64,000 nt of DNA from Pectobacterium sp. A5351 (GTDB lineage Bacteria; Pseudomonadota; Gammaproteobacteria; Enterobacterales; Enterobacteriaceae): positions 1,116,001-1,180,000 of the forward strand of contig NZ_CP116477.1 in NCBI RefSeq assembly GCF_028335745.1. Reading direction: 5' to 3'. Below, piece after piece: positions 10,664 to 52,407 of the stretch (position 1 is its first letter; the number at the start of each line of letters is the position of its first letter). Made by a program: the position numbers and the translations under genes. The notes beneath the pieces were generated by a model. That model did not search any database. It had not been told where the DNA came from and was given only the letters and a program-made list of their open reading frames with translations.

Positions 10664-10703
10664 GCTGTTGCCCAAGCCTTAACAAAAAGGGAGCCGAGGC
10701 TCC

Positions 10704-10817
10704 TAATGCCGATCGGTTAAGGATCGAGATACCGGGGGCTACCACGATGCGAGGCATCCCTGCGGGAGCCTCATCACCGTGTTTCCCCCTAAACCCATGC
10801 TTAAGTGACTAGCATTA
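10704..10817 (+). mobile_element. 114-bp IS4-like miniature element in the grcA terminator (copy 1)
   Basis: The element begins TAATGCCGATCGGTTAAG and ends with the inverse of TAATGCTAGTCACTTAAG, an 18-bp terminal inverted repeat with 13 matches. It is flanked by an exact 11-bp duplication, GCCGAGGCTCC (10693-10703 and 10818-10828). Removing the element and one copy of the duplication restores a perfect terminator, GGGAGCC-GA-GGCTCCC followed by six T residues (10829-10836 region). The left end agrees with my recollection of the IS4 termini, and 11 bp is within the IS4 duplication range. It has no ORF and folds into one long imperfect hairpin. A copy differing at one base lies at 46596-46709. 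Confidence 0.85.
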
Positions 10818-10857
10818 GCCGAGGCTCCCTTTTTTACATCTCTGTTTTATATCACTA

Positions 10858-34095: not shown

Positions 34096-37000
34096 TTGAA
34101 TGGTGTGATTGGCGTCATTAAATTCGTTATTGGACAGGTTTTTATCGTCGCGCTTGATGGAAGTCAAAGATTGCTGGTTGCTGGCGATCGGGTCTACAGC
34201 GGTGAAGAGGTCGTTACCGGTGCTAATGGCGCGGTTTCAATCACATTACCAGATGGCAAAACATTGGATCTGGGGCGGGATAGCCGCTGGAGCGATGTCA
34301 GCAATGCGTCTTCTCAAGGAAGTGCCGATGTCGCCAATGATGTTGCCGAGATACAAGATGCGATTGCTCAGGGCGCTGATCCGACACAGGTGCTTGAAGC
34401 AACTGCAGCAGGTAATGACAGCACAGGAGATGCGGGGGACGGTGGCGGTGGACATTTCAATCCCGCGGTCATTTTGAACCTGACAGCCGAGGTCGTGACG
34501 ACGCCGATTGGGTATGATACCGCGGGCTTATCGTTTACTGACCGCGCCTCATCCGTTCTGGATGGTGTCGCTTCATCCACGCTGCTTACTGCCGCCGCGG
34601 ATACCACTGATACCACACCTCCCTCTGTCACCCTTGTCATAAACAGTGACGGCACAATAAGTTTCGTTTTTACAAAACCGCCCGTTGGTTTTGACCTCAC
34701 TGATATCACCGTAACAAACGGCTCAGTAACGAACTTGGTGCAGGATCCTAACGATCCCACTCGCTGGACGGCGACATTAACGCCTGCCAACAATTTTGAG
34801 GGTGAGGTTCGTGTCAGCATCCCTGATGGCAGCTATACCGATGATGCTGGCATTCCTGGAACAGGGGGAAGTGAAGCGGTAACCGTCGATACCCTACCTC
34901 CTGTTGCCTCAATTTCAATTGATGATGTGACGTCCGATAACGTCATCAATGCCGCCGAGTCTGGGCAGACCATTGCCGTTACTGGCAAGGTGGGCGATGA
35001 AGTCAAAGTGGGCGATGCAATCACCGTCAAAGTCGGCACCGAGACCTACCAGACCACGGTCAATGCCGATGGCAAAACCTGGAGCGTCAACGTTCCCGGT
35101 TCTGTGTTAGCCGCCAACAGTGATGTGAGTGCTACCGTCACCACACGTGATACCGCAGGCAATGTCACCACGGCGAATACTTCTCATGCTTACGGCGTCG
35201 ATACGGTGGCACCAACGGCGTCGATTACTATCGACGATGTCACGTCGGATAACGTCATCAATGCCAGCGAATCCGGGCAGACCATTGCGGTGACCGGGAA
35301 AGTCGATAACGACGTGAAAGCCGGGGATGCGGTTACCGTTAAAGTTGGTACTGAAACCTACCAGACCACCGTCAATGCGGACGGCAAAACCTGGAGCGTG
35401 AATGTTCCCGGCTCCGTATTAGCCGCCAACGGCGATGTGAGCGCGACGGTCACCACCCGCGATGCGGCAGGCAATGTTACTACCGCCAATACCAGCCATG
35501 CTTATGATGTCGATACGGTGGCCCCAACGGCGTCGATTACTATCGACGATGTCACCAGCGATAACGTGATTAATGCCAGTGAGTCCGGCCAGACCATTGC
35601 GGTGACGGGTAAAGTCGATAACGACGTCAAAGCCGGCGATGCGGTTACAGTAAAAGTCGGTAGCGAGACCTACCAGACCACGGTCAATGCCGATGGCAAA
35701 ACCTGGAGCGTGAATGTGCCCGGATCGGTATTGGCCGCCAATAGCGATGTGAGTGCCACGGTCACCACGCGTGATCCGGCGGGCAATGTTACTACCGCCA
35801 ATACGACCCATGCCTACGGTGTCGATACGGTTGCACCAACCGCGTCGATTACTATCGACGATGTGACGTCGGATAACGTGATTAACGCGACCGAATCCGG
35901 CCAGACCATTGCGGTGACCGGTAAGGTTGATAACGACGTCAAAGCGGGCGACGCGGTTACCGTTAAGGTCGGCACGGAAACGTACCAGACCACCGTCAAT
36001 ACTGATGGTAAAACCTGGAGTGTGAATGTTCCCGGTTCGGTGTTAGCAGCCAATAGTGATGTGAGTGCTACCGTCATCACGCGCGATGCGGCAGGCAATG
36101 TCACCACGGCGAATACTTCTCACGCTTACGGCGTCGATACGGTTGCGCCAGTTGCCTCAATTTCCATTGACGATGTGACGTCGGATAATGTGATTAATGC
36201 CGCCGAATCCGGCCAGACCATTGCAGTCACCGGTAAAGTCGATAATGACGTGAAGGCGGGCGATGCGGTTACCGTTAAAGTCGGTACCGAGACCTACCAG
36301 ACCACCGTGAATGCCGATGGCAAAACCTGGAGCGTGAATGTTCCCGGCTCGGTGCTGGCAACGAATAGCGATGTGAGCGCCACGGTCACCACACGCGACA
36401 CGGCAGGCAACGTCACTACCGCGAATACGACCCATGCCTACGGTGTCGATACCGTTGCACCCGTTGCCTCGATATCTATCGATGACGTCACGTCTGATAA
36501 CGTGATTAATGCGACTGAGTCCGGCCAGACCATTGCGGTGACCGGTAACGTCGATAACGACGTCAAAGCCGGGGATGCCATTACCGTTAAGGTCGGCACC
36601 GAGACTTATCAGACCACCGTCAATGCCGATGGCAAGACCTGGAGCGTGAATGTTCCCGGATCGGTATTAGCCGCCAACGGCGATGTGAGTGCTAGCGTCA
36701 CCACGCGCGATCCGGCAGGCAACGTTACGACTGTAAATACCAGCCATGCCTACGGTGTCGATACGGTTGCACCAACCGCGTCGATTACTATCGATGACGT
36801 CACGTCTGATAACGTGATTAATGCGACTGAGTCCGGCCAGACCATTGCGGTGACGGGGAAGGTCGATAACGACGTGAAAGTTGGTGATACGGTTACCGTT
36901 AAAGTCGGTACCGAGACCTACCAGACCACCGTCAATGCGGACGGCAAAACCTGGAGCGTGAATGTTCCCGGTTCGGTGTTAGCCGCCAACGGTGATGTGA

Positions 37001-40000
37001 GTGCCACGGTCACCACGCGTGACACCGCAGGCAATGTCACTACCGCCAACACGAATCATGCTTACGGCGTGGATACGGTGGCACCAACGGCGTCGATTAC
37101 TATCGACGATGTCACGTCGGATAACGTCATCAATGCCAGCGAATCCGGGCAGACCATTGCGGTGACCGGGAAAGTCGATAACGACGTCAAAGTCGGCGAT
37201 GCGGTTACCGTTAAAGTGGGTACCGAGACCTACCAGACCACCGTGAATGCCGATGGCAAAACCTGGAGCGTGAATGTTCCTGGTTCGGTGTTAGCAGCCA
37301 ATGGCGATGTGAGCGCCAGCGTGACCACACGCGATCCAGCAGGCAACGTCACTACCGCCAACACGAATCATGCCTACGGCGTGGACATCGTTGCACCAAC
37401 GGCATCGATTACTATCGATAACGTCACGTCCGATAACGTGATTAATGCTGCCGAATCCGGCCAGACCATTGCGGTGACGGGGAAGGTCGATAACGACGTG
37501 AAAGTTGGTGATACGGTTACCGTTAAAGTCGGTACCGAGACCTACCAGACCACGGTGAATGCCGATGGCAAGACCTGGAGCGTGAATGTTCCCGGCTCCG
37601 TACTAGCCGCCAACGGCAATGTCTCTGCGACGGTGACGACGCGCGATACCGCTGGCAACGTCACCACCGTCAATACGACTCACGCTTACGGTGTGGATAC
37701 GGTGGCACCAACGGCGTCGATTACTATCGACGATGTCACGTCGGATAACGTCATCAATGCCAGCGAATCCGGGCAGACCATTGCAGTCACCGGTAAAGTC
37801 GATAATGACGTGAAGGCGGGCGATGCGGTTACCGTTAAAGTCGGTACCGAGACTTACCAGACCACCGTCAATGCTGATGGCAAAACCTGGAGCGTGAATG
37901 TTCCCGGTTCGGTGTTAGCCGCGAATGGTGATGTGAGCGCGACAGTCACCACGCGCGATGCAGCAGGTAACGTCACCACCGCGAATGCCACTCATGCCTA
38001 CGGCGTGGACACCGTTGCACCAACGGCTTCTATTACCATTGACGATGTGACGTCGGATAACGTGATCAATGCGGCCGAATCCGGCCAGACCATTGCAGTC
38101 ACCGGTAAAGTCGATAATGACGTGAAGGCGGGCGATGCGGTTACCGTTAAAGTGGGTACCGAGACCTACCAGACCACCGTGAATGCCGATGGCAAAACCT
38201 GGAGCGTGAATGTTCCCGGCTCGGTGTTAGCCGCTAATGGTGATGTGAGTGCGACAGTCACCACACGTGATCCGGCGGGCAATGTTACTACCGCCAATAC
38301 GACCCATGCTTACGGTGTCGATACCGTTGCACCAACGGCGTCGATTACTATCGATAACGTCACGTCTGATAACGTGATTAATGCCAGCGAATCCGGCCAG
38401 ACGATAGCCGTGACCGGTAAAGTGGATAACGACGTCAAAGCGGGCGATGCGGTTACCGTTAAAGTGGGTACCGAGACCTACCAGACCACCGTCAATACTG
38501 ATGGTAAAACCTGGAGTGTGAATGTTCCCGGCTCGGTGTTAGCCGCTAATGGTGATGTGAGCGCGACGGTGACGACACGCGATACCGCGGGCAACGTTAC
38601 GACGGCAAACACGAATCATACTTATGGTGTCGATACCGTTGCACCAACTGCCTCGATTACTATCGACGATGTCACGTCGGATAACGTCATCAATGCCAGC
38701 GAATCCGGGCAGACCATTGCGGTGACCGGGAAAGTCGATAACGACGTCAAAGTCGGCGATGCGGTTACTGTTAAAGTGGGTACCGAGACCTACCAGACCA
38801 CCGTCAATACTGATGGTAAAACCTGGAGTGTGAATGTTCCCGGTTCGGTGTTAGCAGCCAATAGTGATGTGAGTGCTACCGTCATCACGCGCGATGCGGC
38901 AGGCAATGTCACCACGGCGAATACTTCTCACGCTTACGGCGTCGATACGGTTGCGCCAGTTGCCTCAATTTCCATTGACGATGTGACGTCGGATAATGTG
39001 ATTAATGCCGCCGAATCCGGCCAGACCATTGCGGTGACCGGTAACGTCGATAACGACGTGAAAGCGGGCGATGCGGTTACGGTTAAAGTTGGTACTGAAA
39101 CCTACCAGACCACCGTCAATGCGGACGGCAAAACCTGGAGCGTGAATGTTCCCGGCTCCGTATTAGCCGCCAACGGCGATGTGAGTGCCACGGTCACCAC
39201 CCGCGATGCGGCAGGCAATGTTACTACCGCCAATACCAGCCATGCTTATGATGTCGATACGGTGGCCCCAACGGCGTCGATTACTATCGACGATGTCACC
39301 AGCGATAACGTGATTAATGCCAGTGAGTCCGGCCAGACCATTGCCGTGACCGGTAAAGTGGATAACGACGTCAAAGCGGGCGATGCGGTTACCGTTAAAG
39401 TGGGTACCGAGACCTACCAGACCACCGTGAATGCTGATGGCAAAACCTGGAGCGTGAATGTTCCCGGTTCGGTACTAGCCGCCAATGACGATGTGAGTGC
39501 TACCGTCACCACGCGCGATGCAGCAGGTAACATCACCACTGCCAATACCAGCCACGCTTACGGTGTCGATACCGTTGCACCAACGGCGTCGATTACTATC
39601 GATAACGTCACGTCTGATAACGTGATTAACGCGGCCGAGTCCGGTCAGACCATTGCGGTGACCGGTAAAGTCGATAACGACGTGAAAGCCGGGGATGCGG
39701 TTACCGTTAAAGTCGGCACGGAAACGTACCAGACCACCGTCAATGCCGACGGTAAAACCTGGAGCGTGAATGTTCCCGGTTCGGTACTAGCCGCCAATGA
39801 CGATGTGAGTGCGACAGTCACCACGCGTGATCCGGCGGGCAATGTCACTACCGCCAACACGAATCATGCTTACGGCGTGGATACGGTTGCACCAACCGCC
39901 TCGATTACTATCGATAACGTCACGTCCGATAACGTGATTAATGCGACTGAGTCCGGCCAGACCATTGCGGTGACGGGGAAGGTCGATAACGACGTGAAGG

Positions 40001-43000
40001 CGGGCGATGCGGTTACCGTTAAAGTGGGTACCGAGACCTACCAGACCACCGTCAATACTGATGGTAAAACCTGGAGTGTGAATGTTCCCGGCTCGGTGTT
40101 AGCCGCTAATGGTGATGTGAGTGCGACAGTCACCACACGTGATCCGGCGGGCAATGTTACTACCGCCAATACGACCCATGCCTACGGTGTCGATACCGTT
40201 GCACCAACGGCATCGATATCTATCGATAACGTCACGTCTGATAACGTGATTAACGCGGCCGAGTCCGGGCAGACCATTGCGGTCACCGGTAAAGTCGATA
40301 ACGATGTGAAAGTCGGCGATGCCATTACCGTTAAAGTGGGCAGCGAAACCTACCAGACGACGGTGAATGCCGACGGCAAGACCTGGAGCGTGAACGTGCC
40401 GGGCTCTGTATTAGCCGCCAATAGTGATGTGAGCGCGACCGTCACCACCCGTGACACCGCAGGCAACGTCACTACGGCAAACACAAATCACACTTACGGT
40501 GTCGATACCGTCGCACCAACCGCCTCGATTACCATCGACAATGTCACGTCCGACAATGTCATCAATGCCAGCGAATCCGGTCAGACCATTGCGGTGAAGG
40601 GTAAAGTCGATAACGACGTCAAAGCGGGTGATGCGGTTACCGTTAAAGTCGGCACCGAGACCTACCAGACGACGGTGAATGCGGACGGCAAAACCTGGAG
40701 TGTCAATGTTCCCGGTTCCGTGCTGGCCGCCAATGGTGATGTGGGCGCGACGGTGACGACACGTGACACCGCGGGCAATGTCACTACCGCCAATACTACT
40801 CATGCCTACGGTGTAGACACCGTTGCACCAACCGCCTCGATTACTATCGACGATGTGACGTCCGATAACGTGATCAATGCCAGCGAGTCTGGCCAGACCA
40901 TTGCGGTAACCGGTAACGTCGATAACGACGTGAAGGCGGGTGATGCGGTTACCGTTAAAGTGGGCAGCGAGACCTACCAGACGACGGTGAATGCGGATGG
41001 CAAAACCTGGAGCGTGAACGTGCCTGGGGCTGTGCTGGCCGCGAATGGTGATGTGAGCGCGACAGTCACCACGCGCGATGCGGCAGGCAACGTCACGACT
41101 GCGAATGCCAGCCACGCTTACGGTGTCGATACGGTTGCACCAACGGCGTCGATTACTATCGATAACGTCACGTCTGATAACGTGATTAATGCCAGCGAAT
41201 CCGGCCAGACGATAGCCGTGACCGGTAAAGTGGATAACGACGTGAAAGCGGGCGATGCGGTTACCGTTAAAGTGGGCACCGAGACCTACCAGACCACCGT
41301 CAATGCGGACGGCAAAACCTGGAGCGTGAACGTTCCGGGCTCTGTACTGGCTGCTAACGGTGATGTGAGTGCTACCGTCACTACGCGCGATGCGGCAGGT
41401 AACGTTACGACTGCCAATACCAGCCATGCTTACGGTGTCGATACGGTTGCACCAACCGCCTCTATTACTATTGATAACGTGACGTCGGATAACGTCATCA
41501 ATGCGGCCGAGTCCGGCCAGACCATATCCGTCACCGGTAAAGTCGATAACGATGTGAAAGTCGGCGATGCCATTACCGTTAAAGTGGACAGCGAAACCTA
41601 CCAGACGACGGTGAATGCCGACGGCAAGACCTGGAGCGTGAACGTGCCGGGCTCTGTATTAGCCGCCAATAGTGATGTGAGCGCGACGGTCACCACCCGC
41701 GACACCGCAGGCAACGTCACTACCGCGAATACGACCCATGCCTACGGTGTCGATACCGTTGCACCAGTTGCCTCGATATCTATCGACAATGTCACCAGCG
41801 ATAACGTGATTAACGCCAGTGAATCCGGCCAGACGATAGCCGTCACCGGTAAGGTGGATAATGACGTCAAAGCGGGTGATGCGGTTACGGTGAAAGTCGG
41901 GACCGAGACCTACCAGACCACCGTCAATGCGGACGGCAAAACCTGGAGTGTTAACGTACCGGGCTCTGTATTAGCTTCGAATGGTGACATAAGCGCGACG
42001 GTCACCACGCGTGACACCGCAGGTAACGTCACCACTGCCAACACCTCTCATGCTTACGGTGTCGATACCGTTGCACCAACGGCATCGATATCTATCGATA
42101 ACGTCACGTCCGATAACGTGATTAACGCGGCCGAGTCCGGGCAGACCATCGCCGTCACCGGTAACGTCGATAACGACGTGAAAGCCGGGGATGCCATTAC
42201 GGTGAAAGTCGGTAGCGAGACCTACCAGACCACCGTCAATGCGGACGGCAAAACCTGGAGCGTGAATGTGCCGGGCTCTGTATTAGCCGCCAATGGCGAT
42301 GTGAGTGCTACCGTCACCACGCGCGATCCGGCGGGTAACGTTACCACGGCCAACACCAGCCACGCTTACGGTGTCGATACGGTTGCACCAACCGCGTCGA
42401 TTACTATCGATAACGTCACGTCCGACAATGTCATCAATGCCAGCGAATCCGGCCAGACCATTACGGTGACCGGTAAAGTCGATAACGATGTGAAAGTCGG
42501 CGATGCCATTACCGTTAAAGTGGGCAGCGAAACCTACCAGACCACCGTCAATGCGGACGGCAAAACCTGGAGCGTGAATGTTCCCGGTTCGGTGTTAGCC
42601 GCCAACGGTGATGTGAGTGCCACGGTCACCACGCGTGACACCGCAGGCAATGTCACTACCGCCAACACGAATCATGCTTACGGCGTGGATACGGTCGCAC
42701 CAATCGCCTCTATTACTATTGATAACGTGACGTCGGATAACGTCATCAATGCGGCCGAGTCCGGGCAGACCATTGCGGTCACCGGTAAAGTCGATAATGA
42801 CGTGAAGGCGGGCGATGCGGTTACCGTTAAAGTCGGTACCGAGACTTACCAGACCACCGTGAATGCTGATGGCAAAACCTGGAGTGTCAATGTGCCGGGG
42901 TCGGTATTAGCCGCCAACGGCGATGTGAGTGCTAGCGTCACCACACGCGATCCGGCGGGTAACGTTACCACGGCAAACACCAGCCACGCTTACGGCGTGG

Positions 43001-46000
43001 ATACCGTTGCACCAACCGCGTCGATTACTATCGATAACGTCACGTCGGATAACGTCATCAATGCGGCCGAATCCGGTCAGACCATAGCCGTCACCGGTAA
43101 GGTGGATAATGACGTCAAAGCGGGTGATGCGGTTACGGTGAAAGTCGGGACCGAGACCTATCAGACGACCGTCAATGCGGATGGCAAAACCTGGAGTGTG
43201 AATGTTCCCGGCTCCGTGCTGGCGGCGAATAGTGATGTGAGCGCGACGGTCACCACCCGCGATACGGCGGGTAACGCCACCACGGCGAACACCCATCATG
43301 CCTATGCTGTAGATACGACGGCTCCTGAAATTGATATTACGAATTTTGCCGGTAACGATGGGTATGTTAGCCAGAGTGAATCGAAAAATACGGTAATTAG
43401 CGGTACCAGTAACGAGAAAACGGTCGATCTGGTCTTTACCGATGTGAATGGTAAGTCGGTTACGCTGCATGACGTGCCTGTGACGAATGGTAAATGGCAG
43501 GCGAATGTCGATCTGAGTACGTTAGCGGAAGGCAAGATTACCGCTGGCGCGACGGCGACCGATGCGGCAGGCAATCAGGCGCATGATAACAGCCAGGCGA
43601 TCATGGATATTACGCCGCCAGCTGCACACGACAATACGGTTTCTGGCATGGAAGACACGCCGCTCCATATTGGCTGGAGCGATCTGGGCGTATCGAGCGA
43701 TACCACAAGCATCGTGATTTCGTCTTTACCGCCAGCCAGCGCGGGTACGCTCTATTTTAACGATAGCGGGAGTTGGAAAGCGGTCACGGTTGGGCAAACC
43801 TTTACCGCTGGCAACACCGATCTGCGCTTTACGCCAGTGGGTAATCTCTCTGGCGCATCGCTGGGTGATATTGGTTATCGGCCCGTTGATGTTGCGGGTA
43901 ACACCGGCGATAAAGCCGCGCTGCACATTGGCATAACACCTGTAGCCGATGCGCCGGTAGTGAGCCTGAGCATCACCAGTGGTGCGACAACGCCGACCTC
44001 TTCGGAAATTATTAAGGTCAATGGCGGTAGTGCCAACGGCGGCTTCGATGTACAAAATGGGAAAATTGTTGCCGTAGGCAACGGTGTCCGCGTTTGGCTG
44101 ACCGAGGGGGATCCGGTACCTACGGTGGTCGGCAATGGCAAGGTAGCGTACTACAGTCAGGGTAATACCAGCGGCGATGGCAGCTACAGCGATATCTTCG
44201 TTGTGCATTCCAACAGTGGGTATTTCTATCGACAGAGTGACTGGCCGGCCGATCGTAAGGATCATCGCGATCTGGATTCGTTTAACGGTAACCGGACGAA
44301 TAACGGCAGCAGCGCGCATTCTGACTACGTGTTCGTTATGAAAGAGACGGGTTACACCTATAACGCAACCTATAGTACGAACAACAATCAGGATACGTCG
44401 GTTAACACGCTGGACGGACTGAAAGTTAACTATACCGATGGCAGCGGCAAGTCAGGCTCGTTTACCTCGCAGGTTAGCAACAATATTGAAGGCGTGATCT
44501 ATAGCGACGGTACGACATACACCCCGGGCACCAATAGTGCGACGGTGGAAAAAGTGCCCGGTCAGGCAGGTACACAGACGCATACGCTTGATGTCTCGGC
44601 AGCCCTGACCGATCGCGACGGCAGTGAAACCCTGTCAGGGATTACGCTCACGGGGATCCCGAAAGGAACGGTGCTGACCGACCACATTAACAACGTGAAG
44701 TATACCGTTGGTGACGATGGATCGTATCTCATCAAGAACGCCAGCAATGCCCAGACGCTGGCTGGCAAGATTACGCTCGACGTGCCAGTCGATGCGGGCA
44801 AATTCAACGTAGTGGCGCAGGCGACATCGACAGAAATTGCCAACCATGATACGGCGACCGGCTACTCTGCCGGAGGCGTTGAGCAGTATGGGATGAGCGT
44901 CGGTACGATAGGCGATGACAACATGTCCGGCACGCATAGCCACGATGTGATGGTCGCGGATGTCTCCGGCTTGCAGATCATTGAAGGCAAGAATTACAAC
45001 ATTGCCTTTATGGTTGATTCATCCGGCAGTATGTCGTCAACGGATATCGAGAATACGCGTACATCGTTGAGCAACGTGTTCAAAAGCCTGATCAATAGTG
45101 CTAGCGGTGTGAATTCCGGTACGGTAAACGTTTTTCTGGCTGATTTTGATACGCAGGTGGGGAACACCATTTCTGTGAATCTGAACGACGCCAGCGCCTT
45201 GAATAAGCTGACCGCCGTATTGAATTCAATGGTGGGCGGATCGGAGAAAGGCGGTGGAACCAACTATGAAGATGTGTTCAAGACGACGGCTAACTGGTTC
45301 CAAAGCGATGTGGTGAAAAAGAATGTGGGTAATAACCTGACGTATTTCATTACCGACGGTGAGCCAACGTTCTATCAGAAGAATGAAGGCGATGTCGTGA
45401 AAGTGAGTGACTGGAACCAAACGCTGAATATCGATAGCTTCGCCTACAAGCCAGGTCAGTCCTACTCGATGGATGTTCGCGGTGCTGTGCGTGAAGTGAT
45501 TGATAGCAAAGGGAACGTCTATCAATATGCGTGGAGTGATAAGAGCAATCAAGTCACGGGTACGGTGATTGGTCAGGTACACGCGCAGGGGGATGGAACG
45601 TATGAAATCTCCTCTCTGGGCGGCGTGGGTAATAACAGCAGCTACTGGGCGCAGGACTACCGCGGCAACTGGTACTGGGTTGATAATTCAGGCAACCGCG
45701 ATGTCAGCAACACCAATGCGGCTCAGGCTTTCAGTTTACTGAAGAAGCAGTCGACCATTGAAGCGATCGGTATTGGTGCGGATTTACATGGCGATACGCT
45801 GAAGCGCTATGACACCGACGGTGTGGTTCAGGATCATATTGATCCAGCTAACCTTAATAAAGCGATTCTGGGCAGCAGTGAGTCAATACATGCAGGTAAT
45901 GACCAACTGAATGGTGGGTTGGGGAATGACATTCTGTTCGGCGATGTGGTGTCGTTTCCTAATATCGACGGCAACGGTATCACCGCCTTGCAGAACTACA

Positions 46001-46572
46001 TCGGCAAGCAGTTAGGTATGCAAACCGGCGTTCCGACGGCGAAAGAGATGCATAGCTATATTGCCACGCACAGCGCGGAGTTTGATCTGTCGTCGGCGAA
46101 AGATGGCAACGACACACTCAACGGTGGAGCGGGGAATGACATTCTTTTCGGTCAGGGTGGAAATGACACACTGATTGGCGGGGAAGGTAATGATCTACTC
46201 TACGGCGGTGCGGGAGATGACATCCTGATCGGTGGGCCGGGGGGCGATACGCTTATCGGCGGCGCGGGCGCGGATATCTTTAAGTGGCAGGCTGGCGATA
46301 TCGGTAACGATGTGATCAAAGACTTTAACGCCAAAGAGGGCGACCGGATTGATCTCAGCGATCTAGTGGGCGAACTGGAGGAAGGAACCGATATTAGCCG
46401 CTATATTCGTATCACCGACAATCATGGTTCACCGACGATTGAGGTTAGCACGGAGGGGAACTTTACGGCGGATAAAGGCGGAACGGTTGCAGTGTCGATT
46501 ACGTTGGAACACTATAACGGTGCATTGCCGTCGCTTGAAAGCCTGGTCAGCAAACCAGAACAGTCGAGCTGA
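34096..46572 (+). CDS. giant LapA/BapA-like RTX adhesin (multi-repeat protein), type I secreted
   Basis: This 4158-residue surface adhesin starts at TTG behind a strong AAGGAG; the nearby ATG is out of frame. It begins with a LapA-type retention module (about residues 1-130) carrying the LapG cleavage motif TAAG at 103-106. A linker leads to 27 Ig-like repeats of exactly 104 residues (264-3071), one divergent repeat and a non-repeat region. A von Willebrand A domain has its metal site DSSGS near 3639, GGGTNYED and ITDGEP. RTX calcium-binding nonapeptides (GGAGNDILFG, GGEGNDLLYG; about 3933-4057) and a type I secretion signal end the protein. In P. atrosepticum the orthologous protein is exported by the neighbouring T1SS and binds plant tissue. 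No stop or frameshift interrupts it. Confidence 0.95.
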   Translation: MNGVIGVIKFVIGQVFIVALDGSQRLLVAGDRVYSGEEVVTGANGAVSITLPDGKTLDLGRDSRWSDVSNASSQGSADVANDVAEIQDAIAQGADPTQVLEATAAGNDSTGDAGDGGGGHFNPAVILNLTAEVVTTPIGYDTAGLSFTDRASSVLDGVASSTLLTAAADTTDTTPPSVTLVINSDGTISFVFTKPPVGFDLTDITVTNGSVTNLVQDPNDPTRWTATLTPANNFEGEVRVSIPDGSYTDDAGIPGTGGSEAVTVDTLPPVASISIDDVTSDNVINAAESGQTIAVTGKVGDEVKVGDAITVKVGTETYQTTVNADGKTWSVNVPGSVLAANSDVSATVTTRDTAGNVTTANTSHAYGVDTVAPTASITIDDVTSDNVINASESGQTIAVTGKVDNDVKAGDAVTVKVGTETYQTTVNADGKTWSVNVPGSVLAANGDVSATVTTRDAAGNVTTANTSHAYDVDTVAPTASITIDDVTSDNVINASESGQTIAVTGKVDNDVKAGDAVTVKVGSETYQTTVNADGKTWSVNVPGSVLAANSDVSATVTTRDPAGNVTTANTTHAYGVDTVAPTASITIDDVTSDNVINATESGQTIAVTGKVDNDVKAGDAVTVKVGTETYQTTVNTDGKTWSVNVPGSVLAANSDVSATVITRDAAGNVTTANTSHAYGVDTVAPVASISIDDVTSDNVINAAESGQTIAVTGKVDNDVKAGDAVTVKVGTETYQTTVNADGKTWSVNVPGSVLATNSDVSATVTTRDTAGNVTTANTTHAYGVDTVAPVASISIDDVTSDNVINATESGQTIAVTGNVDNDVKAGDAITVKVGTETYQTTVNADGKTWSVNVPGSVLAANGDVSASVTTRDPAGNVTTVNTSHAYGVDTVAPTASITIDDVTSDNVINATESGQTIAVTGKVDNDVKVGDTVTVKVGTETYQTTVNADGKTWSVNVPGSVLAANGDVSATVTTRDTAGNVTTANTNHAYGVDTVAPTASITIDDVTSDNVINASESGQTIAVTGKVDNDVKVGDAVTVKVGTETYQTTVNADGKTWSVNVPGSVLAANGDVSASVTTRDPAGNVTTANTNHAYGVDIVAPTASITIDNVTSDNVINAAESGQTIAVTGKVDNDVKVGDTVTVKVGTETYQTTVNADGKTWSVNVPGSVLAANGNVSATVTTRDTAGNVTTVNTTHAYGVDTVAPTASITIDDVTSDNVINASESGQTIAVTGKVDNDVKAGDAVTVKVGTETYQTTVNADGKTWSVNVPGSVLAANGDVSATVTTRDAAGNVTTANATHAYGVDTVAPTASITIDDVTSDNVINAAESGQTIAVTGKVDNDVKAGDAVTVKVGTETYQTTVNADGKTWSVNVPGSVLAANGDVSATVTTRDPAGNVTTANTTHAYGVDTVAPTASITIDNVTSDNVINASESGQTIAVTGKVDNDVKAGDAVTVKVGTETYQTTVNTDGKTWSVNVPGSVLAANGDVSATVTTRDTAGNVTTANTNHTYGVDTVAPTASITIDDVTSDNVINASESGQTIAVTGKVDNDVKVGDAVTVKVGTETYQTTVNTDGKTWSVNVPGSVLAANSDVSATVITRDAAGNVTTANTSHAYGVDTVAPVASISIDDVTSDNVINAAESGQTIAVTGNVDNDVKAGDAVTVKVGTETYQTTVNADGKTWSVNVPGSVLAANGDVSATVTTRDAAGNVTTANTSHAYDVDTVAPTASITIDDVTSDNVINASESGQTIAVTGKVDNDVKAGDAVTVKVGTETYQTTVNADGKTWSVNVPGSVLAANDDVSATVTTRDAAGNITTANTSHAYGVDTVAPTASITIDNVTSDNVINAAESGQTIAVTGKVDNDVKAGDAVTVKVGTETYQTTVNADGKTWSVNVPGSVLAANDDVSATVTTRDPAGNVTTANTNHAYGVDTVAPTASITIDNVTSDNVINATESGQTIAVTGKVDNDVKAGDAVTVKVGTETYQTTVNTDGKTWSVNVPGSVLAANGDVSATVTTRDPAGNVTTANTTHAYGVDTVAPTASISIDNVTSDNVINAAESGQTIAVTGKVDNDVKVGDAITVKVGSETYQTTVNADGKTWSVNVPGSVLAANSDVSATVTTRDTAGNVTTANTNHTYGVDTVAPTASITIDNVTSDNVINASESGQTIAVKGKVDNDVKAGDAVTVKVGTETYQTTVNADGKTWSVNVPGSVLAANGDVGATVTTRDTAGNVTTANTTHAYGVDTVAPTASITIDDVTSDNVINASESGQTIAVTGNVDNDVKAGDAVTVKVGSETYQTTVNADGKTWSVNVPGAVLAANGDVSATVTTRDAAGNVTTANASHAYGVDTVAPTASITIDNVTSDNVINASESGQTIAVTGKVDNDVKAGDAVTVKVGTETYQTTVNADGKTWSVNVPGSVLAANGDVSATVTTRDAAGNVTTANTSHAYGVDTVAPTASITIDNVTSDNVINAAESGQTISVTGKVDNDVKVGDAITVKVDSETYQTTVNADGKTWSVNVPGSVLAANSDVSATVTTRDTAGNVTTANTTHAYGVDTVAPVASISIDNVTSDNVINASESGQTIAVTGKVDNDVKAGDAVTVKVGTETYQTTVNADGKTWSVNVPGSVLASNGDISATVTTRDTAGNVTTANTSHAYGVDTVAPTASISIDNVTSDNVINAAESGQTIAVTGNVDNDVKAGDAITVKVGSETYQTTVNADGKTWSVNVPGSVLAANGDVSATVTTRDPAGNVTTANTSHAYGVDTVAPTASITIDNVTSDNVINASESGQTITVTGKVDNDVKVGDAITVKVGSETYQTTVNADGKTWSVNVPGSVLAANGDVSATVTTRDTAGNVTTANTNHAYGVDTVAPIASITIDNVTSDNVINAAESGQTIAVTGKVDNDVKAGDAVTVKVGTETYQTTVNADGKTWSVNVPGSVLAANGDVSASVTTRDPAGNVTTANTSHAYGVDTVAPTASITIDNVTSDNVINAAESGQTIAVTGKVDNDVKAGDAVTVKVGTETYQTTVNADGKTWSVNVPGSVLAANSDVSATVTTRDTAGNATTANTHHAYAVDTTAPEIDITNFAGNDGYVSQSESKNTVISGTSNEKTVDLVFTDVNGKSVTLHDVPVTNGKWQANVDLSTLAEGKITAGATATDAAGNQAHDNSQAIMDITPPAAHDNTVSGMEDTPLHIGWSDLGVSSDTTSIVISSLPPASAGTLYFNDSGSWKAVTVGQTFTAGNTDLRFTPVGNLSGASLGDIGYRPVDVAGNTGDKAALHIGITPVADAPVVSLSITSGATTPTSSEIIKVNGGSANGGFDVQNGKIVAVGNGVRVWLTEGDPVPTVVGNGKVAYYSQGNTSGDGSYSDIFVVHSNSGYFYRQSDWPADRKDHRDLDSFNGNRTNNGSSAHSDYVFVMKETGYTYNATYSTNNNQDTSVNTLDGLKVNYTDGSGKSGSFTSQVSNNIEGVIYSDGTTYTPGTNSATVEKVPGQAGTQTHTLDVSAALTDRDGSETLSGITLTGIPKGTVLTDHINNVKYTVGDDGSYLIKNASNAQTLAGKITLDVPVDAGKFNVVAQATSTEIANHDTATGYSAGGVEQYGMSVGTIGDDNMSGTHSHDVMVADVSGLQIIEGKNYNIAFMVDSSGSMSSTDIENTRTSLSNVFKSLINSASGVNSGTVNVFLADFDTQVGNTISVNLNDASALNKLTAVLNSMVGGSEKGGGTNYEDVFKTTANWFQSDVVKKNVGNNLTYFITDGEPTFYQKNEGDVVKVSDWNQTLNIDSFAYKPGQSYSMDVRGAVREVIDSKGNVYQYAWSDKSNQVTGTVIGQVHAQGDGTYEISSLGGVGNNSSYWAQDYRGNWYWVDNSGNRDVSNTNAAQAFSLLKKQSTIEAIGIGADLHGDTLKRYDTDGVVQDHIDPANLNKAILGSSESIHAGNDQLNGGLGNDILFGDVVSFPNIDGNGITALQNYIGKQLGMQTGVPTAKEMHSYIATHSAEFDLSSAKDGNDTLNGGAGNDILFGQGGNDTLIGGEGNDLLYGGAGDDILIGGPGGDTLIGGAGADIFKWQAGDIGNDVIKDFNAKEGDRIDLSDLVGELEEGTDISRYIRITDNHGSPTIEVSTEGNFTADKGGTVAVSITLEHYNGALPSLESLVSKPEQSS
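34885..43308 (+). repeat. 27 tandem 312-bp units encoding Ig-like repeats of the giant adhesin
   Basis: Unit boundaries at each (G/D)VDT-(V/L)(A/P)P junction are exactly 312 bp apart; 8424 bp divides into 27 units with no remainder. Units begin VAPTASITIDDVTSDNVINA and end VTTANTSHAY-GVDT. Variation is confined to a few positions (ASITI/ASISI, DDV/DNV, NAS/NAA/NAT, KAG/KVG, GTE/GSE, DAA/DTA/DPA). Rare markers show block copying inside the array: VITRD occurs only in units 4 and 13, and AYDVDT only at the ends of units 2 and 14. Confidence 0.95.
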
Positions 46573-46595
46573 CGAAAAGGGGGAGCCTGCCCGGC

Positions 46596-46709
46596 TAATG
46601 CTAGTCACTTAAGCATGGGTTTAGGGGGAAACACGGTGATGAGGCTCCCGCAGGGATGCCTCGCATCGTGGTAGCCCTCGGTATCTCGATCCTTAACCGA
46701 TCGGCATTA
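46596..46709 (-). mobile_element. 114-bp IS4-like miniature element in the adhesin terminator (copy 2)
   Basis: This is the reverse complement of the copy at 10704-10817 with a single base difference (113/114). It is flanked by an exact 11-bp duplication, GCCTGCCCGGC (46585-46595 and 46710-46720). Removing it and one duplication restores a terminator hairpin GGAGCC-TGCCC-GGCTCC followed by TTTCTTT, ten bases after the adhesin stop codon. In both copies the duplicated target starts right after GGA in the left arm of the stem. Confidence 0.85.
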
Positions 46710-46756
46710 GCCTGCCCGGCTCCTTTCTTTATCAAAAACTTAAAAGGTCTCCGAGA

Positions 46757-51719: not shown

Positions 51720-52241
<522 letters not shown>

Positions 52242-52243
52242 TG

Positions 52244-52355
52244 TAACGCCGATCTTTTAGAACCGATATACACGGAGCTACCACGGGGCGAGGTGTTCCT
52301 GCGGGAATCTCATCCCCGTGTTTCTCCTAAAATGAAGCTGACGTGACCAGCACGA
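52244..52355 (+). mobile_element. diverged relative of the 114-bp element in the tadA terminator (copy 3)
   Basis: It starts TAACGCCGATC two bases after the tadA stop and keeps the core seen in the other copies (GCTACCACG, GCGAGG, CCTGCGGGA, CTCATC, CCGTGTTTC), but with many substitutions. At least two stem positions change together relative to copy 1 (a T-A pair to G-C and a C-G pair to T-A), so the fold is kept. The flanks GCAGGAATAGT and GCAGGAGTTGC may be a decayed 11-bp duplication; exact ends are uncertain. Confidence 0.65.
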
Positions 52356-52407
52356 GTGCAGGAGTTGCGGCGTTTTTTCTTTATGTAGTCTTACTCTGGA
52401 TGTAGTC

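Follow-up and report, generated by a model that had tools for sequence, protein, structure and literature searches.

A hairpin-forming miniature element of the IS4 subgroup within intrinsic terminators of Pectobacterium

In the 64,000-nt stretch of DNA analysed here (the window; C2:1116001-1180000 of a 4.41-Mb Pectobacterium genome), a 114-bp sequence occurs twice in opposite orientation, which raises the question of what kind of element it is, whether it has moved recently and what directs it to its sites. All 114 bases of the two copies align with one mismatch (BLAST, 99%, E = 7.8e-53), and with their flanks the copies span an inverted pair in the window (I1; 138 nt, 94% complementary). The ends are imperfect 18-bp terminal inverted repeats, and each copy is flanked by an exact 11-bp duplication that differs in sequence between the two places (GCCGAGGCTCC and GCCTGCCCGGC). 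In these respects, and in the lack of an ORF, the original prediction proved accurate: no ORF of at least 60 aa lies within either copy, 114 bp holding at most 37 aa, and copy 2 is overlapped at its edges by two ORFs, one of 62 and one of 104 aa. Three strong places in the window, namely copies 1 and 2 and a decayed copy 3, were identified with a covariance model built on the inner 69 nt. The features are as follows, with gene names (grcA and srmB at copy 1, tadA and mltF at copy 3) assigned from NCBIfam.

10704..10817, plus strand: MITE copy 1, 114 bp, ends TAATGCCGATCGGTTAAG / TAATGCTAGTCACTTAAG
10693..10703, unstranded: left target duplication of copy 1, GCCGAGGCTCC (sequence)
10818..10828, unstranded: right target duplication of copy 1, GCCGAGGCTCC (sequence)
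10684..10695, unstranded: host terminator of copy 1 between grcA and srmB, A-tract and 5' arm GGGAGCC (bare terminator of the same kind in 23 of 24 other genus genomes)
10823..10835, unstranded: host terminator of copy 1, 3' arm GGCTCCC and T-tract (sequence, folding, bare-site comparison)
10723..10791, plus strand: conserved inner hairpin (core) of copy 1 (covariance model 94.5 bits, E = 2.3e-25, the model being built from members of the same family)
46596..46709, minus strand: MITE copy 2, 114 bp, one mismatch to copy 1 (sequence)
46585..46595, unstranded: left target duplication of copy 2, GCCTGCCCGGC (sequence)
46710..46720, unstranded: right target duplication of copy 2, GCCTGCCCGGC (sequence)
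46582..46587, plus strand: host terminator of copy 2, 5' arm GGAGCC, 3' of a large adhesin-like ORF (sequence, folding, bare-site comparison)
46718..46730, plus strand: host terminator of copy 2, 3' arm GGCTCC and T-rich tract (sequence, folding, bare-site comparison)
46622..46690, minus strand: conserved inner hairpin of copy 2 (covariance model 90.8 bits)
52244..52355, plus strand: copy 3, decayed, between tadA and mltF, boundaries approximate and duplication decayed (core at 52262-52330, 81.7 bits)
52221..52231, unstranded: host terminator of copy 3, 5' arm AAAAACGCCGC (sequence)
52367..52378, unstranded: host terminator of copy 3, 3' arm GCGGCGTTTTTT (sequence)

The ORF upstream of copy 2 (window 34096-46572) encodes 4,158 aa and contains 27 tandem 312-bp repeats at 34885-43317. 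A type I secretion C-terminal domain was found in the last 600 aa, the part searched, and the 3' terminator of this ORF is the copy 2 site.

The element is not restricted to the window. The 114-bp query gave 40 scored BLAST matches in the genome, from 51 candidates, and the covariance model gave 55 matches, which correspond to 53 places because two matches are the opposite strand of places already counted. A chance repeat is ruled out by these 53 places. MITE DNA was matched in 25 of 59 genomes, comprising all 25 of the genus (own genome included) and 0 of 34 outside it, and the same query had no match in the plasmid collection. At five loci (L012, L013, L016, L017 and L022) we observed an extended version of about 184 bp, in which some 70 additional bases precede the right end. 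Another full copy, at C2:1204891-1205004, is 100% identical to copy 1 and has a duplication with 2 mismatches of 12. It is common to the own genome and G004, with 400-base flanks that align over their full length on both sides. This copy, or a similar one, is plausibly the donor of the window copies.

We located the regions beside copies 1 and 2 in all 25 genus genomes, own included. At the grcA-srmB site, the terminator hairpin is bare in 23 of the 24 other genomes and G004 carries a full-length IS of the type IS-B (see below); at the adhesin 3' site a bare terminator hairpin is again present in 23 of 24, and G019 carries an 84-bp relative. Both window copies are thus private to the own genome among the 25 genomes examined, and the same two hairpins have been struck independently by two other elements, in G004 and G019. 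The claim of real, recent transposition is thereby supported. The original prediction had set transposition against conserved structure, which is a false choice: the mobile element also has a hairpin with compensatory base changes. Conserved structure without mobility is ruled out by the private insertions together with the exact duplications.

The IS4 subgroup is characterized by ends of the form -AATR--------WTW---- and duplications of 10-13 bp (Table 1 of PMC2266710). Both 18-bp ends of the MITE and its 11-bp duplication fit, and six full-length relatives are present in the own genome, which further supports the assignment to IS4. These relatives, IS-A, are intact copies of 1,424-1,425 bp. 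Their 442-aa protein matches the NCBIfam IS4 transposase NF033592 with 302.6 bits and contains the Pfam domains Nterm_IS4 and DDE_Tnp_1 (PF13006, PF01609), and the DNA is about 80% identical to full-length E. coli IS4, with some match in 2,690 of 5,426 E. coli genomes. At the left end of IS-A (L089-L091, L093 and L094) we observed an inward hairpin followed by a T-run (AATGCCAGTCAGTTAAGCAACTGACTGGCATTTTTT), which perhaps blocks read-in transcription. A second type, IS-B, is 1,413-1,415 bp long, with a protein 51-53% identical to that of IS-A. Complete copies occur in G004 (seven of them), G014 and G003; the own genome retains only a 1,163-bp remnant, with some 80 residues missing from its transposase ORF. 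At E = 1e-30, 11 of the 25 genus genomes gave transposase matches.

A full-length IS4-type transposase elsewhere in the genome, said by the original prediction to be what must have moved the element, does exist in IS-A. The necessity does not follow: the window MITE ends differ from those of IS-A at 2 and 2 positions per 18, and IS-B, whose ends match better, is deleted here. Against the IS-B ends of relatives there are 1 (left) and 1-2 (right) mismatches per 18, and against those of the own remnant 2 and 1; IS-B also has the closest end match to the MITE consensus. In G004, the MITE duplications (L055, L153-L165) are at least 12 bp in 12 of 14 copies, in comparison to 10-11 bp at five IS-B copies (L113, L122, L129, L133 and L136), and therefore IS-B may not be the mover of the MITEs there. 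At the sequence level, the matching ends, duplications, bare sites, many copies and full-length relatives show that the element is a MITE.

Copies 1 and 2 both lie inside the hairpin of an intrinsic terminator, a point absent from the original prediction. We examined insertion sites across the subgroup with a test that required both ends and a duplication of 9-15 bp, the flanks being joined without the insert. A site was scored as terminator-like if it formed a stem of 5 bp or more that contained no fewer than 3 GC pairs and no more than 1 mismatch, a loop of 3-9, a centre at most 4 nt from the duplication, and at least 4 T in the 6 positions after it (or A before). The set comprised 173 loci (40 own MITE, 88 relatives' MITE, 31 Pectobacterium IS and 14 E. 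coli IS4). A usable duplication was present in 114, and the other 59 (24, 26, 9 and 0, respectively) were left out. Removal of 16 duplicates left 98 sites, which were grouped by similarity into 80 clusters, some of which merge different elements at one terminator, each counted once. Target duplications in the subgroup loci were mostly 10-14 bp.

Across MITEs, full-length IS and E. coli IS4, 47 of the 80 clusters were terminator-like (own MITE 8/13, relatives' MITE 17/40, Pectobacterium IS 14/16, E. coli IS4 8/11). Exact duplications only gave 4/4, 10/20, 11/13 and 8/11, respectively. The duplication was centred within 1 nt of the hairpin at 42 of the 47 terminator-like sites; the offset is 1.5 nt at copy 1 and 0 at copy 2. 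Controls scored far lower: in the window, 3.8% of 3,000 positions between genes and 4.5% of 3,000 within coding sequence were terminator-like, as were 3.4-3.8% of shuffled sites and, when the position was displaced within the same loci, 24 of 578 (4/100, 8/262, 6/128 and 6/88). The 33 clusters that fail include 10 of the 20 exact-duplication MITE sites of relatives; of these 10, L153, L182 and L191 resemble, by eye, shorter or bulged hairpins, forms that the criterion disallows.

In E. coli, 12 further loci scored in the same way added four site classes, three of them terminator-like. The resulting 15 classes represent about 13 places because L466 is the raiA-bamD terminator again, in the other orientation relative to L141, and L149 and L151 are both tdk-adhE. 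Terminator-like E. coli IS4 sites lie at raiA-bamD, mug-rpoD, galP-metK, tdk-adhE and aroA-ycaL, and next to eno and glgP. Insertions within genes also occur in E. coli, one of which still scores as terminator-like, and two intergenic sites fail. Statistically, these data show that the IS4 subgroup favours sites resembling intrinsic terminators, with an A-tract, a GC-rich palindrome and a T-tract at fixed spacing.

Which part of such a site the transposase reads can be approached from the aligned sites. In an alignment anchored at the centre of the duplication, both IS and MITE sites have A in 70-81% at -12/-11 and T in 74-78% at +11/+12. The arms also pair more often than when they are shuffled between sites, in 8.15 of 10 positions at IS sites (shuffled 6.27, sd 0.21) and in 6.98 of 10 at MITE sites (shuffled 5.69, sd 0.16). 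Both the A/T tracts and the palindrome thus seem, on these alignments, to matter for site choice. The strongest alternative, although we consider it somewhat unlikely, is that the transposase reads only a bipartite A-tract/T-tract motif with about 22 bp between the tracts, which terminators match by happenstance. It would account for 23 non-terminator sites with 0-1 duplication mismatches, which keep the tracts (A 78 and 74%, T 91 and 78%) and have no clear extra arm pairing (5.70 versus 5.44, sd 0.25). However, with a tract score trained on the same sites and a single 64-kb window as control, a score at or above the site median was accompanied by a hairpin at 13.7% of 73 window positions versus 70% of 40 sites, and a top-quartile score at 33% of 9 window positions versus 85% of 20 sites.

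The filled sites of copies 1 and 2 are each predicted to fold as one long hairpin on the host arms (z = -5.80 and -5.63 versus shuffles), and a filled site still folds in this way, with the U-tract, because the element itself is a long hairpin. We extended the folding to 22 MITE-in-terminator sites, that is, 25 terminator-like sites minus three with fewer than 2 outer pairs. For the host outer arms, the probability of pairing averaged 0.739 at bare, 0.746 at filled and 0.739 at inverted sites, and 0.621 with a shuffled insert (filled versus shuffled insert, Wilcoxon P = 4.5e-6); at 3 of the 22 sites the host arms were unpaired even when bare. The sparing effect is modest in silico because shuffled inserts also often leave the arms paired. 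At the decayed copy 3, the host arms AAAAACGCCGC and GCGGCGTTTTTT are still complementary. Termination is accordingly predicted by these models to survive MITE insertion.

The inner 69-nt hairpin has a distribution of its own. A GTDB pattern scan with 25 inner bases found at least 120 stretches. Among the 120 examined for IS4-type ends, 63 have both, 9 only the left, 8 only the right and 40 neither, and of the 80 stretches listed, 9 are not from Pectobacterium (five Brenneria, three Samsonia and one Ewingella). The core without IS4-type ends is present in Brenneria, Samsonia and Ewingella among the matches listed. One Samsonia copy, L335, has both IS4-type ends with 3 mismatches each, and therefore the form with IS4-type ends is not wholly restricted to the genus. 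BLAST with a Brenneria copy across the family found the core in 8 of 99 genomes, own included, with the matches in G064 and G145 not extending over the whole core, and the covariance model with strict filters found it in 3 of 197 genomes of the order, including the own genome and one congener. Either the core is patchy or the strict filters lose weak copies. At G096:C23:242066-242392, four core-like matches lie in a row, about 84-113 bp apart.

Could the inner hairpin be an RNA element useful to the host, such as a 3'-end stabiliser or part of a terminator, whose mobility is secondary? We regard this as unlikely, despite several observations in its favour. In the core stem of 88 copies (87 distinct), 92.2% of cells are paired and 11 of 20 pairs show two-sided change. 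In part of this set the inner pairs could hardly vary, because the pattern scan fixed most of the innermost 25 bases. Compensatory cells number 70, versus 27.5 (sd 3.4) in shuffled and 2-6 in slid alignments, figures uncorrected for shared ancestry. The occurrence in Brenneria, Samsonia and Ewingella of cores without IS4-type ends also agrees with a host function, as does the position of own-genome copies that lack an IS4 left end, 13 of 14 of the classed ones adjoining a gene 3' end. However, pairing could persist for DNA reasons or through copying, and the shuffles ignore shared ancestry. Rfam has no match at the element places in the window at gathering score and none in three core loci with E up to 1, and the patchy recovery in the order likewise argues against a host RNA. 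Across a set of 40 MITE copies, RNAalifold found two-sided change in only 3 of 31 pairs.

On a handful of core copies (L297, L309, L378 and L354) we found a second type of end, near TGAGATTGCTGACAAA, and in three of them (L297, L309 and L378) a terminator hairpin of about 16-21 bp is repeated in the flanks. Tentatively, and with still less confidence than the host-RNA reading receives, the 69-nt hairpin could be a conserved module common to two or more kinds of mobile element, with IS4-type and TGAGATTGCTGACAAA-type ends, both at terminators. In that case it would represent a mobile 3'-end RNA cassette that bacteria exchange and retain, with the entire IS4 subgroup being a terminator-targeting lineage.

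The genomic context of the copies was classed by simple ORF calling. Of the 53 own-genome places, 49 could be classed as 17 convergent, 24 tandem and 8 divergent, and the remaining 4 fall inside a called ORF. The intergenic regions of the window comprise 8 convergent, 15 tandem and 8 divergent regions (1,086, 3,311 and 2,372 bases by length), so that the 3'-end bias of the own-genome copies is clear when regions are weighed by length but weak when they are simply counted. That an ordinary IS4-type MITE inserts widely and acquires its terminator association through purging of gene and promoter insertions would fit the largely intergenic position of the copies, their preference for 3' ends, and the 33 clusters that are not terminator-like, but it is very improbable, since centring of the duplication on the loop within 1 nt is beyond what purging can produce, displaced positions in the same loci are rarely terminator-like, and different elements in G004 and G019 struck the same two terminators.

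We therefore consider it likely, taking these parts jointly, that the element is an IS4-subgroup MITE that is moved in trans, favours terminators and, as a hairpin, spares termination when it inserts. As a non-autonomous MITE of the IS4 family, IS4 subgroup, it would be acted on in trans by an IS4-type DDE transposase, which probably reads the flanking A/T-tracts and the central inverted repeat in DNA, the repeat in either duplex or extruded-hairpin form. Statistically, the staggered cut is centred on the terminator loop, and the duplicated bases are therefore the hairpin centre. Insertion into the loop is predicted by folding to lengthen the terminator hairpin. Because the element is one long hairpin, the base-proximal host arms and the U-tract would stay paired in either orientation, termination should survive and the cost to the host should be small. 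Such a low cost would account for the long persistence of copies at the 3' ends of genes. This suggests a way for a transposon to occupy a working regulatory signal, namely to be a hairpin and to enter a hairpin. It also has implications for the origin of long structured RNAs in 3' untranslated regions and for the tolerance of such insertions beside important genes.

Among known systems, E. coli IS4 (insG), which names both the family and the subgroup, shares with the element TAATGC..TTAAG-type ends, target duplications (11-14 bp in IS4) and terminator-centred sites. It is 1,426 bp long with a transposase, whereas the element is 114 bp, lacks a transposase and forms a single hairpin. In the IS4, MITE and terminator literature surveyed, which included few subscription journals, no title or abstract opening states terminator targeting by IS4. 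An older report is said to place IS4 in the pheS,T attenuator, at an AAA-N20-TTT site, and terminator targeting by IS4 may therefore not be wholly new. Group IIC introns target intrinsic terminators as well; these are retroelements and not DDE transposons. The word "terminator" occurs 0 times in the main text of PMC2266710. Several IS elements enter REP palindromes, namely ISPsy8, ISRm22, IS1397 and IS621, of which ISRm22 belongs to the IS4 family (PMC1525189, in part). The insertion point of ISPsy8 and ISRm22 is, as for the element here, the centre of symmetry of an extragenic palindrome (same part of PMC1525189); the targets of the REP-targeting IS are repeated REP sequences, whereas here they are unrelated terminators that have only a layout in common. 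The ERIC, Correia, QMITE and SPRITE repeats, covered by PMC10969869 in its review of bacterial MITEs, differ in their ends, and insertion into existing terminator loops is not described in the available part of PMC10969869; like the element, they are short, multi-copy and hairpin-forming, and some lie in 3' untranslated regions (same source and part). The element is thus a MITE of the IS4 subgroup, of a known kind, and its nesting in terminators is what is unusual about it.
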